NCBI RefSeq assembly: GCF_900156885.1
Contig: NZ_FTOY01000011.1
Coordinates: forward strand, 424,501-488,500
Direction: 5' to 3'
Source of the DNA: Limosilactobacillus caccae
GTDB taxonomy: Bacteria > Bacillota > Bacilli > Lactobacillales > Lactobacillaceae
DNA length: 64,000 bases
Both the position numbers and the translations under genes were made by a program. The notes under the pieces were generated by a model. That model made no database searches. It saw only the letters and a program-made list of their open reading frames with translations, and had not been told where the DNA came from. Shown piece by piece: positions 32,735-44,943 of the stretch. Numbering within the stretch: position 1 is the stretch's first letter; the number at the start of each line of letters is the position of its first letter.

Positions 32735-33026
32735 AAAGACGTCCCGCAAAGAAGTTAGTTACTTCTTTACGGGACGTCTTTAACGTGTTGCCACCCTCAT
32801 TTAGTAGGAGCTCACACCCCTACCCTTCATCGGTACACCATCTCTGGTAAACCGTGACACAGTACCGGGTGTCAACCGTGGACCACTTACCATCAGGCTC
32901 GCAGTCGCAACTTTGCTCCAAGACCATCTTCATGAACCGCCGCAATATCAGCTCGCACCTAACCTGACTCTCTGGGATTGCATTAGAACATTACTCATCT
33001 TTTCTAAGCGTTCTCTAATTTAATTG
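32735..33026 (-). promoter_or_regulatory. T-box riboswitch of the MetE-like gene
   Basis: Read leftward the leader contains an AGAGAG stem I motif, a conserved T-box core GAGGGTGGCAACACG at 32784-32798, and a strong terminator: AAAGACGTCCCGTAAAGAAGT paired with ACTTCTTTGCGGGACGTCTTT at 32735-32782. This is the classical tRNA-sensing antitermination arrangement. Several ATG triplets in stem I could be the specifier; the downstream gene suggests methionine. Confidence 0.9.
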
Positions 33027-40009: not shown

Positions 40010-40876
40010 TTACTGGTTAATTGCGGTGACTGCCCCGGTGGCGTAATTGATACTAATATTATTTTGTACGTTGGGCACGAAAACATTATACTGCAGGGTT
40101 CCGTCAGCGGACTTCGCTTCAATGTGGGCACCGGATGGGACGAGGTTATTGCCATCATATACATCGGTTACCCGGTAGCGAACCTGCTTATTTTGGTCGA
40201 GGGCCTTACGCACAAGCCCCTCGTAGTAGTTTTGCCCGGTAGAATTGGTGCTCCGCGCTTCGTTGGCCCAGGCAGTCTGGGTCGCGATATTCTTCGGGTT
40301 AGCCTCTGACGCGTTAAAGCCGCGGATTCCACCGACTAATGCGTAGCCAAGCAGGTGCCCTCGATCGTAGGCATGGTTAGGACCGTTCTTGAGGTTGTGA
40401 GCCTGCAAGAACCCAGCCGGCTTCCAGTTCGTCGCGCCATTACCGGTTTGGTTACGGTTTTTATACTGCCGCGTCGTCCGGTTTAACCAGGCATCTCCCT
40501 GCCACGCCCGTCCACGGGAATCCAGCCGGTTGACTGCGTACGGTGCACTGCTAATGCCTGCATTGAGGCCCGTCTGGTTATTGTTAAGGATAAAGGCCCC
40601 GTTTCCATTCCACTTGATATTAGTGGTACCGAGCTGCTGGCGAACCCCTGCTGAGAGGACGCTCTCTGCTTGTTGCTGGCTTGGTGGCGCCATTCGTGAG
40701 TTATTGGAATTTGGGTGTTGCCCCTTGTCATAATGCTGGCCCCAGGAGACTAGTTGTTCAACTCCTGCCGACGCCGCATCACTTGTCTGGGGGTGCTGGC
40801 TAATCCCCCCCACCCCTAAGACAACGATTAAGGGGATGATTAACTTCCATAGTTTCTTTTCAAATCGAAATCGCAT
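40010..40876 (-). CDS. Secreted DNA/RNA non-specific endonuclease (EndA/NucA-like)
   Basis: 288 residues. An N-terminal signal/anchor (LWKLIIPLIVVLGVGGIS), then a nuclease domain with the catalytic DRGHLLGYAL motif and an asparagine in NPKNIATQ typical of the beta-beta-alpha metal family. Likely cell-surface DNA degradation for nutrient use or DNA uptake. Normal length. Confidence 0.9.
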   Translation of the reverse strand: MRFRFEKKLWKLIIPLIVVLGVGGISQHPQTSDAASAGVEQLVSWGQHYDKGQHPNSNNSRMAPPSQQQAESVLSAGVRQQLGTTNIKWNGNGAFILNNNQTGLNAGISSAPYAVNRLDSRGRAWQGDAWLNRTTRQYKNRNQTGNGATNWKPAGFLQAHNLKNGPNHAYDRGHLLGYALVGGIRGFNASEANPKNIATQTAWANEARSTNSTGQNYYEGLVRKALDQNKQVRYRVTDVYDGNNLVPSGAHIEAKSADGTLQYNVFVPNVQNNISINYATGAVTAINQ

Positions 40877-40994: not shown

Positions 40995-42377
40995 TTAGTT
41001 TTCCTGCTTCTTTGCTCTCAGCTTATAAATGATACTCATTAAGATTAAGAAGACAAGCCCGGCACTGACTGAAACCCGGGTGTCTGGGTTAAAGAACATG
41101 AACAGTAGAATGACCGTTAAGGCAATCAAACTAAAGTAGTTGTACGCCGGATAGAATGGCATCTTAAATGGGTGATCCTTCAATTCCACTGGGTTTTGCC
41201 GGCGGAAGTTTAATTCTGAGATCAAAATGATAAACCATGGTACCATCCCCGGAAGAACACTTGAACTATAAACAATCACGAAGATGTTTGATGATTTTGC
41301 ACTGAAAGTAGATACCAGCATGTTCACGACAAACCCTAAGAAGATCCAGAAGGCGATGGTTAAGATTGCAACGTTTGGTACCACCCGCTTGGAAAGCTTA
41401 CTGAATACCTTTGGCACTTCCCCATCGACAGAGAGCTTAAAGAGCATCCGACTGGCACTGTAAATTCCGGAATTTGCCCCGGAAAGTGCGGCCGTTAAAA
41501 CAACGAAGTTAATGATTCCGGCAGCTCCAGTAATTCCGACCCGGGTGAAAGTTTCAACGAATGGTGAACCAACGGCTTTTAATTCGTCCCATGGGTAAAT
41601 TGAAACGATCACGAAGATTGCCCCAATGTAGAAGATCAAGATCCGCCAGATAACGGACTTAACTGACTTCACAATCGCGTGCCGTGGCGAGGCTGCTTCA
41701 CCAGCGGTAATCCCGAGCAATTCAATTCCCTGGTAAGAACCAGCAATCACTGATAAGGAGAACATGAAGCCCATGAAGCCACCGGTGAAGAAGCCACCGT
41801 GGGACCACAGGTTAGAAATTCCTACTGGATGCCAGTGGTTACCAAGGCCGAGAACGATTACCAGTAAACCAAGGATGATCATCACGATAATTGTTACGAC
41901 CTTAATCATCGCAAACCAGAACTCCAACCGACCGTAAGCCTTGGCAGATGCTAAGTTTGCCAGTGTCAAGATGACAATCATGATTACCCCGGAAATCCAG
42001 TCGGGTAAGTCGGGCCACCAGTAATTAAGGTACTGACTCATGGCGATGATGTCGGAAATCCCCACGATGATAAACTGGAAGACGTTGCTCCACTTTGTTA
42101 AATAACCGGCTAAGGGGTGAATGTATTTCGACCCGTAATCCGCAAAGGACCCGGTCCCGGGACTGATATAAATCATCTCCCCCAGCGCCCGCATTACCCC
42201 GTATAGCACTAGGCCGACAAAGGCATAGGCCAAGAGGACGGATGGCCCGGTCCACTTGATCGTTGATGTTGCCCCCATGAAAAGACCACTACCGATTGTT
42301 CCCCCAATCGCGATCATTTCCATCTGGCCAGGCGTCATCGTCCGATTTAATTTTACTTTTTCGTTTGCACTATCCAT
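40995..42377 (-). CDS. Amino-acid permease (APC/AAT family), probably threonine/serine
   Basis: 460 residues, 12 membrane helices. The N-terminal MIAIGGTIGSGLFMGATSTIKWTGPS is the substrate-gate signature of the amino acid transporter subfamily (GabP, AroP, CycA type); GSYQGIELLGITAGEAASPR follows helix 6. The upstream leader peptide is full of threonine and serine codons, so transport of these amino acids is inferred from its regulation. Start at the second of two tandem ATGs; GAGG lies eight bases away. Confidence 0.85.
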   Translation of the reverse strand: MDSANEKVKLNRTMTPGQMEMIAIGGTIGSGLFMGATSTIKWTGPSVLLAYAFVGLVLYGVMRALGEMIYISPGTGSFADYGSKYIHPLAGYLTKWSNVFQFIIVGISDIIAMSQYLNYWWPDLPDWISGVIMIVILTLANLASAKAYGRLEFWFAMIKVVTIIVMIILGLLVIVLGLGNHWHPVGISNLWSHGGFFTGGFMGFMFSLSVIAGSYQGIELLGITAGEAASPRHAIVKSVKSVIWRILIFYIGAIFVIVSIYPWDELKAVGSPFVETFTRVGITGAAGIINFVVLTAALSGANSGIYSASRMLFKLSVDGEVPKVFSKLSKRVVPNVAILTIAFWIFLGFVVNMLVSTFSAKSSNIFVIVYSSSVLPGMVPWFIILISELNFRRQNPVELKDHPFKMPFYPAYNYFSLIALTVILLFMFFNPDTRVSVSAGLVFLILMSIIYKLRAKKQEN

Positions 42378-42395
42378 CATACTAACCTCACTTCA

Positions 42396-42470
42396 AATAA
42401 AAAAGCTACCCATTACGTCCCAATTCAACCCTGATCATTGCTTGATGTGGTTGAGACGTCCTGGATAGCT
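42396..42470 (-). promoter_or_regulatory. Attenuator terminator before the permease gene
   Basis: Read leftward, GCTATCCAGGACGT and CTCAACC pair with GGTTGAATTGGGACGT and TGGGTAGC, followed by TTTTTTATT at 42396-42402. Its left arm includes CAACCAC (42447-42453), which can pair instead with GTGGTTG (42506-42512) at the end of the leader-peptide gene. This gives mutually exclusive antiterminator and terminator forms. Confidence 0.8.
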
Positions 42471-42494
42471 GTTCGCTAACAGATTTTAGAAATA

Positions 42495-42578
42495 TTAAAG
42501 GTGCCCAACCACGGTGCTTGTTGTTGTGGTTGAGGTGGAGGTTAGATGATGAATAATATCTCGAATATAAATTTGCAT
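42495..42578 (-). CDS. Threonine/serine-rich leader peptide of the permease attenuator
   Basis: 27 codons: MQIYIRDIIHHL, then ten codons made only of threonine (seven) and serine (three), then VVGHL. GGAGGAG lies six bases before the ATG. The coding segment CAACCAC (42526-42532) can pair with GTGGTTG (42506-42512). When charged tRNA-Thr/Ser is short, a ribosome stalled on the run would cover the first arm, freeing the second to disrupt the terminator. This is ribosome-mediated attenuation as in amino-acid biosynthesis operons, here before a transporter. Confidence 0.82.
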   Translation of the reverse strand: MQIYIRDIIHHLTSTSTTTTSTVVGHL

Positions 42579-42666
42579 ATTAATCTCCTCCATTTCTTCT
42601 TTCGATAACATTAGAATACTATTAGAAAATTAAGAATGCAAGCCTTTATTTAACTTTTTTTGAAAA

Positions 42667-44943
42667 TTAACGTTTTTTCCGCAAGGATACCAGGCCAATG
42701 GCAGCGACGATCGCCGTGACTAATAAGCCGACCACGCTGGTCACGGTATTAACCTTATTACCTGTCTTAGGGAGTGTTCCCGTCGTTAACTGTCCCTCGC
42801 CTTGGTTAGGTGCTAATGGGGATGTCGCTTCTAGTGCCGTTAAACGGTCTTGGGCAGCCTTGAAACGTTCATGCAAGCGAAGTGGTTCCTGGTTATCCGT
42901 TATCGCTGTGACACTAACTGGCTCTTGAATAGCTTGTGGTTGAATGTTTGCTTGCGGGGTAACGATTTGCGGTTTGCTCCTTTCTTCGCTTTCTGGCGCC
43001 GTCGTGGAGGCAGGGATTACCTGTGGCGCGTTACCGGCTGCTTGGCGTTCGCTTGCCGTCTTTTCTTCTGGGCTGGCAGGTTGTGGCGCTAAATCAGTGA
43101 TCTGCTTGGCTTGTGCTTTCACCGTTGCCGGTTCTTTTGTCGCTTCGTCCAGTTTGGTGCTCGTTACAGTGGTTGTCTGAGGACCAGCAAAGTCTTTTTC
43201 TTGCACTGTCTGGGTCCCTGCTTCATTACAAGACACATCGACTGACTGGCTTGCGTTTTCACTTATATCCGACGGGGCGGTTTGGGATGTCGTGCTAATT
43301 TGGCTTTCGCTGTTAGTCTGACTGGCAGCAGTACTTGTTTCTAGTGGGACAGTTTGGGTTTCCGCATCGACGCGGGTGACAGGGAGCGTTTGGCTTGGTT
43401 CATCAACTATCTGCTGGTCAGTCTGACTTGCTTGGTTGACGTAATCCACACTCGTAGTTTGCGTAGCGCTGTCCTGATGCTCGTTAGGCTGGTCAGTCAT
43501 CGTTGAAGCGTCGCGGTTAGTTGCTTGCTCCGTGGCCGTTGTTTCCGGCTCCGTCTGCGTTGCAACTTCGTGACTCTGTTGTGGCGCGGTCATTGTGCCG
43601 ACTGTTACTGTACCGGCGATAGTAGTTTGCGTACCAGCATCGTGATGTTCACTACTATCCATCGTCTGACTAGCGGTAGAAGTCAATGAGATAGTCGTTT
43701 GGGTTGCCTGGTCACTGCCGGTCAATCGTGTTTGGCTAGCAGCATCTTCAGTGGTAGTTTCCGCAGTCTGGGTTTCCTGACTAGCTAGTTGGGGCGTTTC
43801 TGTTGCTGTTTGCTCATCGACTGTTTCTACTGGTGGCACAGTCATTACTCCTTCATCAATGAAGGTAGGGAGGTCAACTACGGCATCCCCAACGCCAATT
43901 TCGCGACGTGTAACCCTACTTGTCTCTGTTGATTCAGTGATTTGTTCAGGAGCCGCTTGCGTTGCTTGGTCTCTACTGGACACTGGCTCATCCCCGTTGG
44001 CAGTATCAACAAGCTCCTTAACTGTCGTCATTGTCGATTCAGTAGCGGTCGCTGGCTTCTCTGTTTGGCTCGCTTGATCCGCCACTATCACTGGGTCATC
44101 CCCCACCCCAGTATCAGCGGTCGTGACCTCTTCATCCCCACTAGCGGTATCCTTAGTCACGGGATTAACAGTCTGCGTTGCAAAGTCGCGCATGTTTCTA
44201 ACTGGTGCTAACGTTTCATCATCAATCCGATCGTCACCACAGCCCTCATCAATGCTGGTATTTTCATATTGGCTCCCCACATTCCGGGAAGTAATTAGGT
44301 CTGCTGTATCAGTGGCGGTCGTCACCGTTGCTTTTTCATCTTCCACTGGCGTATTTGTTGCTGCGTCAGATACGGTTACTTGGTCGGTGATTTTCACCGG
44401 TGCAGTTTGTACCCCTTGGTCAATTGATGTTGGCTGGTCCTTGCTGGCTTTTGCTTTTCCCTGATAGCCTGGAAGGCGGTGATAGAAAGCAAATGTGGGC
44501 CGATCAAATTGGCCGATGTTCAACGTAGATGTCACTGCAGGGACTGTTTTCGCGTAACAGATGTAACCATCAATCTTGGGCAATTGAACCTCATCAAGGT
44601 TGTCAACCTGCCACATAGTCTCGTTTCTGCCAAGTGTCTTGTGATTAACCGTAACTTCGCGGTGGGCTGTCGCCGTCTGAACGATATCCGGAATCTGGTC
44701 TTCCTCGTCCAAGCCACTGAAGTGGATAACACGTTTAATCTCACGGGTCTCTGGCCAAGTCTCGATTTCTTTCTCGTATTTTTCAGCAGCAATCTTGGCC
44801 TCAATGGCCTCAGCAAGTGATTGTGGTTTGTTCTCATCTGCTAAAACGGGGTTAGCAAAGCCAAGGATTGCCGTGGCGGTCACCATTCCCAGTAAGTAAG
44901 CATTGTTCAAGCGACGTTTCTTAGTGTGTGTGTTCTTTAACAT
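42667..44943 (-). CDS. LPXTG-anchored surface protein with Mub-like domain and TQT repeats
   Basis: 758 residues. Signal peptide to about residue 35 (AYLLGMVTATAILGFANPVLA), a single mucin-binding-type domain at about 65-155 (REIKRVIHFSGLDEEDQIPD, WQVDNLDEVQLPKIDGYICYA), then a 420-residue acidic, unstructured stretch with some twenty short motifs of the type DxATQT, ASQT or AGTQT spaced 10-20 residues apart (174-590), a proline/glutamine-rich linker, and sortase signal LPKTG at 724-728 with hydrophobic tail and RKKR. Covalently attached to the wall; likely an adhesin or stalk. Confidence 0.9.
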   Translation of the reverse strand: MLKNTHTKKRRLNNAYLLGMVTATAILGFANPVLADENKPQSLAEAIEAKIAAEKYEKEIETWPETREIKRVIHFSGLDEEDQIPDIVQTATAHREVTVNHKTLGRNETMWQVDNLDEVQLPKIDGYICYAKTVPAVTSTLNIGQFDRPTFAFYHRLPGYQGKAKASKDQPTSIDQGVQTAPVKITDQVTVSDAATNTPVEDEKATVTTATDTADLITSRNVGSQYENTSIDEGCGDDRIDDETLAPVRNMRDFATQTVNPVTKDTASGDEEVTTADTGVGDDPVIVADQASQTEKPATATESTMTTVKELVDTANGDEPVSSRDQATQAAPEQITESTETSRVTRREIGVGDAVVDLPTFIDEGVMTVPPVETVDEQTATETPQLASQETQTAETTTEDAASQTRLTGSDQATQTTISLTSTASQTMDSSEHHDAGTQTTIAGTVTVGTMTAPQQSHEVATQTEPETTATEQATNRDASTMTDQPNEHQDSATQTTSVDYVNQASQTDQQIVDEPSQTLPVTRVDAETQTVPLETSTAASQTNSESQISTTSQTAPSDISENASQSVDVSCNEAGTQTVQEKDFAGPQTTTVTSTKLDEATKEPATVKAQAKQITDLAPQPASPEEKTASERQAAGNAPQVIPASTTAPESEERSKPQIVTPQANIQPQAIQEPVSVTAITDNQEPLRLHERFKAAQDRLTALEATSPLAPNQGEGQLTTGTLPKTGNKVNTVTSVVGLLVTAIVAAIGLVSLRKKR

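Follow-up and report, generated by a model that had tools for sequence, protein, structure and literature searches.

The 64,000-nucleotide stretch of DNA examined here (the window; C4:424501-488500 of the 2.24-Mb Limosilactobacillus caccae genome G000) carries on its minus strand a leader region that precedes a gene for an amino acid permease of the APC family. We conclude that this leader is very probably a ribosome-mediated transcription attenuator for a threonine, and perhaps also serine, permease, that its ribosome site takes part in the predicted RNA architecture as an additional pairing segment, and that it has a sister leader built on serine codons. An attenuator of this kind had been proposed in a preliminary description made from the sequence alone, and the comparative data on reading frame and base pairings support that interpretation. 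The components of the leader, including its open reading frame (ORF), and the gene that it is predicted to control are as follows.

42613-42641, minus strand: probable promoter TTGCAT-17-TATTCT, assigned by eye and resembling the TATTCTAAT boxes before several other leaders
42587-42592, minus strand: segment 0, UGGAGG, the leader ribosome site, predicted to pair with CCUCCA at 42541-42536 (minimum free energy fold, swap tests with controls)
42495-42578, minus strand: leader ORF MQIYIRDIIHHLTSTSTTTTSTVVGHL, 27 codons, with GGAGG at 42591-42587, 8 nt before the ATG; conserved in relatives
42513-42542, minus strand: regulatory run, codons 13-22 (T S T S T T T T S T; seven Thr, three Ser)
42536-42541, minus strand: segment 0', CCUCCA, the ribosome-site partner inside codons 13-15
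42526-42534, minus strand: segment 1, CUCAACCAC (DNA CTCAACCAC), 9 nt, predicted 1:2 pairing
42504-42512, minus strand: segment 2, GUGGUUGGG (DNA GTGGTTGGG), 9 nt, encoding Val-Val-Gly, predicted 1:2 and 2:3 pairing
42447-42455, minus strand: segment 3, CUCAACCAC (DNA CTCAACCAC), 9 nt, in the 5' arm of the terminator, predicted 2:3 pairing
About 42404-42470, minus strand: intrinsic terminator hairpin (3:4; outer stem AGCUAUCC/GGGUAGCU), from sequence inspection and fold
42430-42426, minus strand: GGTTG core of segment 4
42399-42404, minus strand: terminator T-tract TTTTTT, from sequence inspection
40995-42380, minus strand: ThrP-like APC permease, 461 amino acids, the putative regulated gene (NCBIfam NF047867, 553.9 bits, cut-off 850; Pfam PF00324)

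The preliminary description placed in this region a 27-codon leader ORF with a good ribosome site and a run of ten Thr/Ser codons, and all three are present where it put them and are improbable by chance. The window contains a single short ATG-initiated ORF that is preceded by a Shine-Dalgarno sequence and has at least seven consecutive Thr/Ser codons, and none arose in 60 shuffles of the window. Regions 1 to 3 had likewise been positioned correctly, although each is a 9-nt unit rather than the 7 nt described; the 1:2 and 2:3 helices include one G-U pair each. When the leader was dinucleotide-shuffled 5000 times, such a 9-nt triplet of segments 1, 2, and 3 arose in 5 instances, and it was encountered in 12 of 2552 windows of 205 nt on both strands, which represent five distinct places that include the leader itself. 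The GGTTG assigned to region 4 is the core of segment 4, and the terminator with its T-tract is present but larger than had been described, comprising the hairpin and tract listed above. In the computed fold, a helix between the ribosome site and the start of the run comes first, followed by the 1:2 helix and then the terminator; the energy of this fold (z = -3.47) was matched by none of 200 shuffles. A consensus scan of the minus strand listed no promoter and no terminator, and the terminator was missed because the rules of the scan are probably unsuited to a bulged hairpin.

The stop codon of the leader ORF falls before, in, or after segment 2; for 29 of 30 selected leaders, its offset from the GGTTG core of that segment is between -8 and +13 nt (the offset of -5 for L118 was set by hand, the script having given +7 from an earlier AGTTG taken as the core). 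The outlier, L225, has its stop codon at +23 nt from the segment 2 core. So narrow a range fits a requirement that segment 2 be covered by the terminating ribosome.

An amino acid permease had been named as the target, and its closest model is indeed that of ThrP, a bifunctional threonine/serine APC transporter. Because the score is under the curated cut-off of that model, the substrate of the permease is assigned by homology; the next matches are to other amino acid permease models of the family, likewise under their cut-offs. The nearest named relatives of the protein are from Limosilactobacillus species, in a comparison that possibly omitted records of this or a very near genome. A permease paralogue in the same genome (L002, 67-68%) carries no such leader and no match to the covariance model described below.

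The strongest evidence that the codons serve as the sensor is that a different transporter is accompanied by different codons within an unchanged RNA plan. A covariance model was built from the 32 leaders of alignment A1 (L127 was dropped from 33; L019 and L125 were never included), and its match on the leader in the window covers 42399-42592. In Limosilactobacillus and Weissella-like genomes, this model additionally matches before a different APC transporter of LAT/BasC-like type, and the LAT leaders of Limosilactobacillus carry Ser runs such as MLVFNNQLQQSSSSASSSIRG. The same genome has a Ser-codon leader of its own, MNTMNNHLQQVSSSASSSTMAE (L252:1292-1464; contig G000:C4 at ~168 kb, outside the window), before the gene at G000:C4:168193-169521. 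This leader scores 19 bits and is not in the list from the genome search, having been located via its gene. The encoded LAT protein matches TIGR00911 (under the cut-off), and among solved structures its best relative is 6f2g (1.3e-85), which we take to be BasC, an Ala-Ser-Cys exchanger.

The run codons of 41 Thr-type Limosilactobacillus leaders comprise 246 Thr, 84 Ser, and 4 Ala, and those of eight Weissella-like thrP leaders comprise 46 Thr and 10 Ser. In 14 Ser-type Limosilactobacillus leaders, the corresponding counts are 91 Ser, 12 Ala, 5 Asn, 3 Thr, and 1 Asp. These counts depend on the rules for cutting the run, which were looser for LAT leaders (Asn, Asp, and Arg allowed) than for Thr-type leaders (limited to Thr, Ser, and Ala). 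Thr runs are found with ThrP-like genes and Ser runs with LAT-type genes, where the substrates are those expected from homology. Judged by their sequences, the Thr and Ser leaders are one RNA plan in which the codon run has been changed. Neither an incidental ORF nor a general stress leader predicts such a switch in codons.

The alternative helices are preserved by the substitutions observed among relatives. In A1 (32 sequences), standard pairs account for 95.2% of 273 cells in the 2:3 helix, which falls to 28-50% when the columns are slid by one to three, and for 96.3% of 273 cells in the 1:2 helix (24-47% when slid). Ten 2:3 cells are changed on both sides, and one 2:3 pair is A-U in 17, G-C in 9, and G-U in 5 sequences. 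Alignment across the Thr and Ser families (A2; 34 of 39 leaders, with L221, L222, L223, L228, and L230 dropped) gives pairing in 98.7% of 238 cells of the 1:2 helix, including a change from A-U to G-C in 8 of the 34 sequences, all Ser-type. Mean duplex energies over 46 leaders (L092, L122, L131, and L132 were excluded, no leader having been found) are -15.8 for 1:2, compared to -7.8 with shuffled partners and -15.5 with swapped ones; for 2:3, the equivalent values are -19.1, -13.6, and -18.0. Swapping partners among 26 representatives chosen from these 46 leaders, with relatedness uncorrected, weakened 2:3 (p=0.001). The 1:2 pairing was better overall than that of synonymously recoded runs (Fisher p=5e-5), with 4 of 25 leaders reaching p<=0.05 alone. 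On the basis of sequence and energy, the 1:2, 2:3, and 3:4 helices are predicted to be mutually exclusive.

This leader is also widely kept within the genus. Our genus set holds 50 genomes, of which 45 have a full permease orthologue at 75% identity or more; a partial orthologue in G040 (88%, cut by the contig end) was left out of the examination. The covariance model matches upstream of 40 of these 45 orthologues at E<1e-4, a count that includes matches by construction, given that 23 of the 45 are in the alignment from which the model was built. The preliminary description had held that loss of the frame or pairings among relatives would speak against its proposal, and both this conservation and the compensatory changes noted above speak for it. 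Among 80 loci from named genomes, 15 match at E<0.001: 14 of the 16 loci at 70% identity or more (the exceptions being L015 and L021), and 1 of the 64 below 70% (L024). These matches include Ligilactobacillus (L019, L020, L022), Pediococcus pentosaceus (L024), and Weissella confusa (L062).

The four regions proposed originally are all present, but the layout has five segments, because the leader ribosome site is predicted to form a helix with the start of the regulatory run. This predicted pairing is UGGAGG:CCUCCA in the leader of the window, GGAGGUUGAA:UUCAACUUCC in L118, and GGUUGUUAUA:UGUAACAACC in L024. Native segment 0 partners outperform swapped ones (p=5e-5) in hand-picked sets of 23 and 17 representatives that include Weissella-like leaders, and the effect extends to bases from the end of the GGAGG core onward in the 3' direction. 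Two control segments gave no swap effect (p 0.31-0.90). Pairing is detected in the Ser family as well (p=0.012, 13 representatives) and in both families together (p=5e-5). Self-limited translation via ribosome-site pairing is a feature of the trp leader. Segment 0 could restrict the start of leader translation to an early phase, or to the time when a ribosome stands on the run.

Several observations weigh against these interpretations. Five of the 45 genus orthologues lack a clear model match; those for L122 (E 0.04) and L125 (E 0.18) are weak, and no match is present upstream of the permease in L131 or L132; the fifth, L092, is described below. Six Weissella-like LAT leaders have mixed runs (18 Ser, 13 Thr, 4 Asn, 3 Asp, and 3 Arg) rather than a clear Ser run. 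The 1:2 partner swap among the 26 representatives was not significant (p=0.075), an effect that is slight because segment 1 is nearly invariant in the Thr family. In the Ser family, for which 13 of 21 LAT-permease leaders were used in the swap and 2:3 tests, 2:3 pairing exceeds that of shuffles at p<=0.05 in 9 of the 13. L019 pairs weakly (1:2 -7.0, 2:3 -8.9), and L125 and L127 are less clear exceptions. For segment 0, the native ribosome site is the single best partner in just 3 of 23 leaders, L125 shows no such pairing (-4.9), and the swap tests are uncorrected for sequence relatedness. In the synonymous-recoding control for this segment, the leaders together give a Fisher p=0.005, although just 3 of the 25 reach p<=0.05 individually. 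Moreover, part of the pairing between segment 0 and the run is automatic, because the Thr/Ser codons ACC and TCC are inherently complementary to GGAGG.

From the observed anatomy, conservation, covariation, and change in codon identity, we infer stalling, antitermination, and a role for segment 0 that would operate as follows. A ribosome would load on the nascent leader. When charged tRNA-Thr is in short supply, it would stall in the first run codons, covering segment 1 and leaving segment 2 free to pair with segment 3, such that the permease gene is transcribed. When threonine is plentiful, the ribosome would instead reach the stop codon and cover segment 2, allowing 3:4 to form and transcription to end at the T-tract. 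If no ribosome loads, then 1:2 and 3:4 would form and transcription would also end. In naked RNA the ribosome site would be locked by the run codons, and thus a ribosome could act only by loading ahead of synthesis of the run. Late ribosomes would be excluded unless one is already on the run, where a stalled ribosome would reopen the site. The Ser-run sister is predicted to control the LAT-type transporter via the same plan. We speculate further, with a confidence that falls slightly short of even, that these RNAs of Lactobacillaceae constitute a family of modular attenuators with five segments each. In such a family, the codons would at once sense tRNA, form segment 1, and lock the ribosome site; exchange of Thr and Ser codons would have re-targeted the switch between two APC transporters; and segment 0 would act as a one-ribosome gate reopened only by a stalled ribosome.

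The preliminary description gave threonine and serine as joint signals. Threonine is probably the main signal of the Thr leader, as judged from codon placement, whereas an equal role for serine is rather unlikely. A joint sensor would be in keeping with the three Ser codons among the ten of the run and with the description of the ThrP model as a bifunctional threonine/serine transporter. However, both conserved Ser codons fall in regions that base-pair, TCC (codon 14) within the ribosome-site partner and TCA (codon 16) within segment 1, and the genome has a distinct Ser-codon sister leader as well; threonine is therefore the likelier signal. Most leaders in each of the two families, Thr and Ser, retain TCA, and the third Ser codon (AGC, codon 21) is not conserved. 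L153, L155, and L157 have GGTGG as the ribosome site, which matches CCACC in their Thr run, and ACC at the TCC position. The link between TCC and the ribosome site is not strict, which favors the joint sensor, since ACC also occupies this position in L020, L022, L024, L150, and L154, where the sites are GGAGG and neighboring bases pair.

Other explanations dispense with a specific amino acid or with the ORF altogether. Drug-sensing leaders are known in Firmicutes, and a ribosome stalled from any cause, such as a ribosome-targeting drug, would yield the 2:3 helix. One candidate drug-sensing leader is uORFC-6-1, as given in an excerpt of PMC8632094. A sensor of any slowing of translation is nevertheless improbable here, given that the codons change in step with the transporter across two families. 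The genome, with 24 T-box matches at E<=0.001 of which 10 exceed the cut-off, might lead one to expect a T-box, riboswitch, or protein-binding leader in which the ORF is incidental. Moreover, another APC permease has a T-box-like match immediately upstream (C2:574288-574466, under the cut-off), and a third (L005) follows a lysine riboswitch. We consider this highly improbable, because no Rfam family matches the strand of the leader even at E up to 10, and the frame, run, and stop position are conserved. The Rfam search at this locus returned no T-box (RF00230), no Leu/phe leader (RF01743), and no match to enterobacterial thr leader models (presumably RF00506), and its four weak matches are all on the other strand, none to a leader family. 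Finally, the upstream gene on the same strand ends 88 nt before the leader ORF, and its constitutive terminator might be the hairpin discussed here, with the ORF present by chance. That explanation is barely credible, as it is contradicted by the occurrence of the same leader and terminator before thrP in other genera and before LAT permeases elsewhere.

Leader-peptide attenuation is a known kind of switch, although this family and variant seem undescribed. A search of open-access papers turned up no Thr or Ser leader-peptide attenuator of lactobacilli; subscription papers fell mostly outside the search, and novelty is thus unproven. The comparisons that follow draw on excerpts of the cited papers. 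In the scheme for enterobacterial trp, his, and thr attenuators, taken partly from PMC1183508, a leader ORF with a cognate run, alternative 1:2, 2:3, and 3:4 helices, and a T-tract terminator are arranged as in our leader. In contrast, our leader is from Lactobacillaceae, precedes a transporter gene, has a ribosome site predicted to pair with codons, and has a Ser-recoded sister. The preliminary description noted that such attenuation is best known from proteobacterial biosynthetic operons and called its use for a lactobacillus transporter notable; precedents exist in Firmicutes. The S. aureus ilv-leu operon is proposed to have a Leu-rich attenuator peptide and terminator, and a prediction for Lactococcus is also cited (PMC5794164); that system differs in having a biosynthetic operon and Leu codons. 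His leader peptides, proposed to replace a T-box before hisS/hisZ in bacilli (PMC2965389), involve hisS-family genes and His codons. A Leu/phe leader (RF01743) is listed for Lactococcus lactis, which is of the same order (PMC2864571), although our leader has no Rfam match. In the Bacillus cereus group, a Thr T-box precedes steT/ykbA, which is stated to be under T-box control in that group only (PMC2494555); there, a threonine signal likewise reaches an APC Ser/Thr exchanger, but through a tRNA-binding RNA with no leader ORF.

Our findings suggest that classical leader-peptide attenuation serves as a conserved, re-codable device for amino acid uptake in Lactobacillaceae, whose genomes are otherwise rich in T-boxes. 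The natural pair of related Thr and Ser leaders would allow the contributions of codon identity, helix competition, and leader initiation to the response to be tested. The segment 0 lock, if true, would add a component to the textbook four-segment scheme.

Beyond the genus, a search of 396 genomes of the family gave matches at E<=0.01 in 70, and matches followed by a thrP or LAT permease gene occur in eight genera (g1, g5, g8, g13, g18, g22, g24, g37). Among the 70 model-match loci examined of 89 listed, 39 are before thrP, 21 before a LAT permease, and 10 before neither; the 19 left out of this neighbor-gene check include some loci already in the set. The lone match outside the family (295 genomes of the order, with stricter filters) spans 74 nt at E=6e-4 with no adjacent permease and was taken as chance. 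The element thus looks confined to Lactobacillaceae in the sampled genomes. Six of 29 exact-pattern matches, in loci without a permease, were likewise taken as chance. The 10 model-match loci without a permease comprise L238, which is cut by the contig end, and L239-L246 and L251, which were set aside. A weak 91-nt model match recurs in eight genomes of genus g4 (L239, L240, and L241; G173, G237, G254, G284, and G407), with no permease in L239, L240, or L241, and it is either a shared chance resemblance or another element.

Two of the genus loci without a clear match have distinctive arrangements. In L092 (G034:C1, near 1870975), the permease ATG directly follows the stop codon of the upstream gene, and the promoter and leader are absent; this is perhaps a natural constitutive variant or a rearrangement. 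The same locus contains a group II intron match. Upstream of the permease in L122, the ATG and Thr run are seemingly lost and a terminator-like hairpin is kept, a possible case of attenuator decay.

Within the window, the leader sits between the permease gene and a gene on the same strand for an LPXTG surface protein (42667-44943, minus strand), which is directly upstream. This protein is rich in Thr and Gln, with repeats such as TQT. A T-box-like match is present at 32767-33015 on the minus strand (G000:C4:457267-457515), with a score of 75 bits, below the Rfam cut-off of 93. Downstream of the permease, the gene at 40010-40876 (minus strand) encodes a DNA/RNA non-specific endonuclease (PF01223) whose N-terminus is secretion-like.
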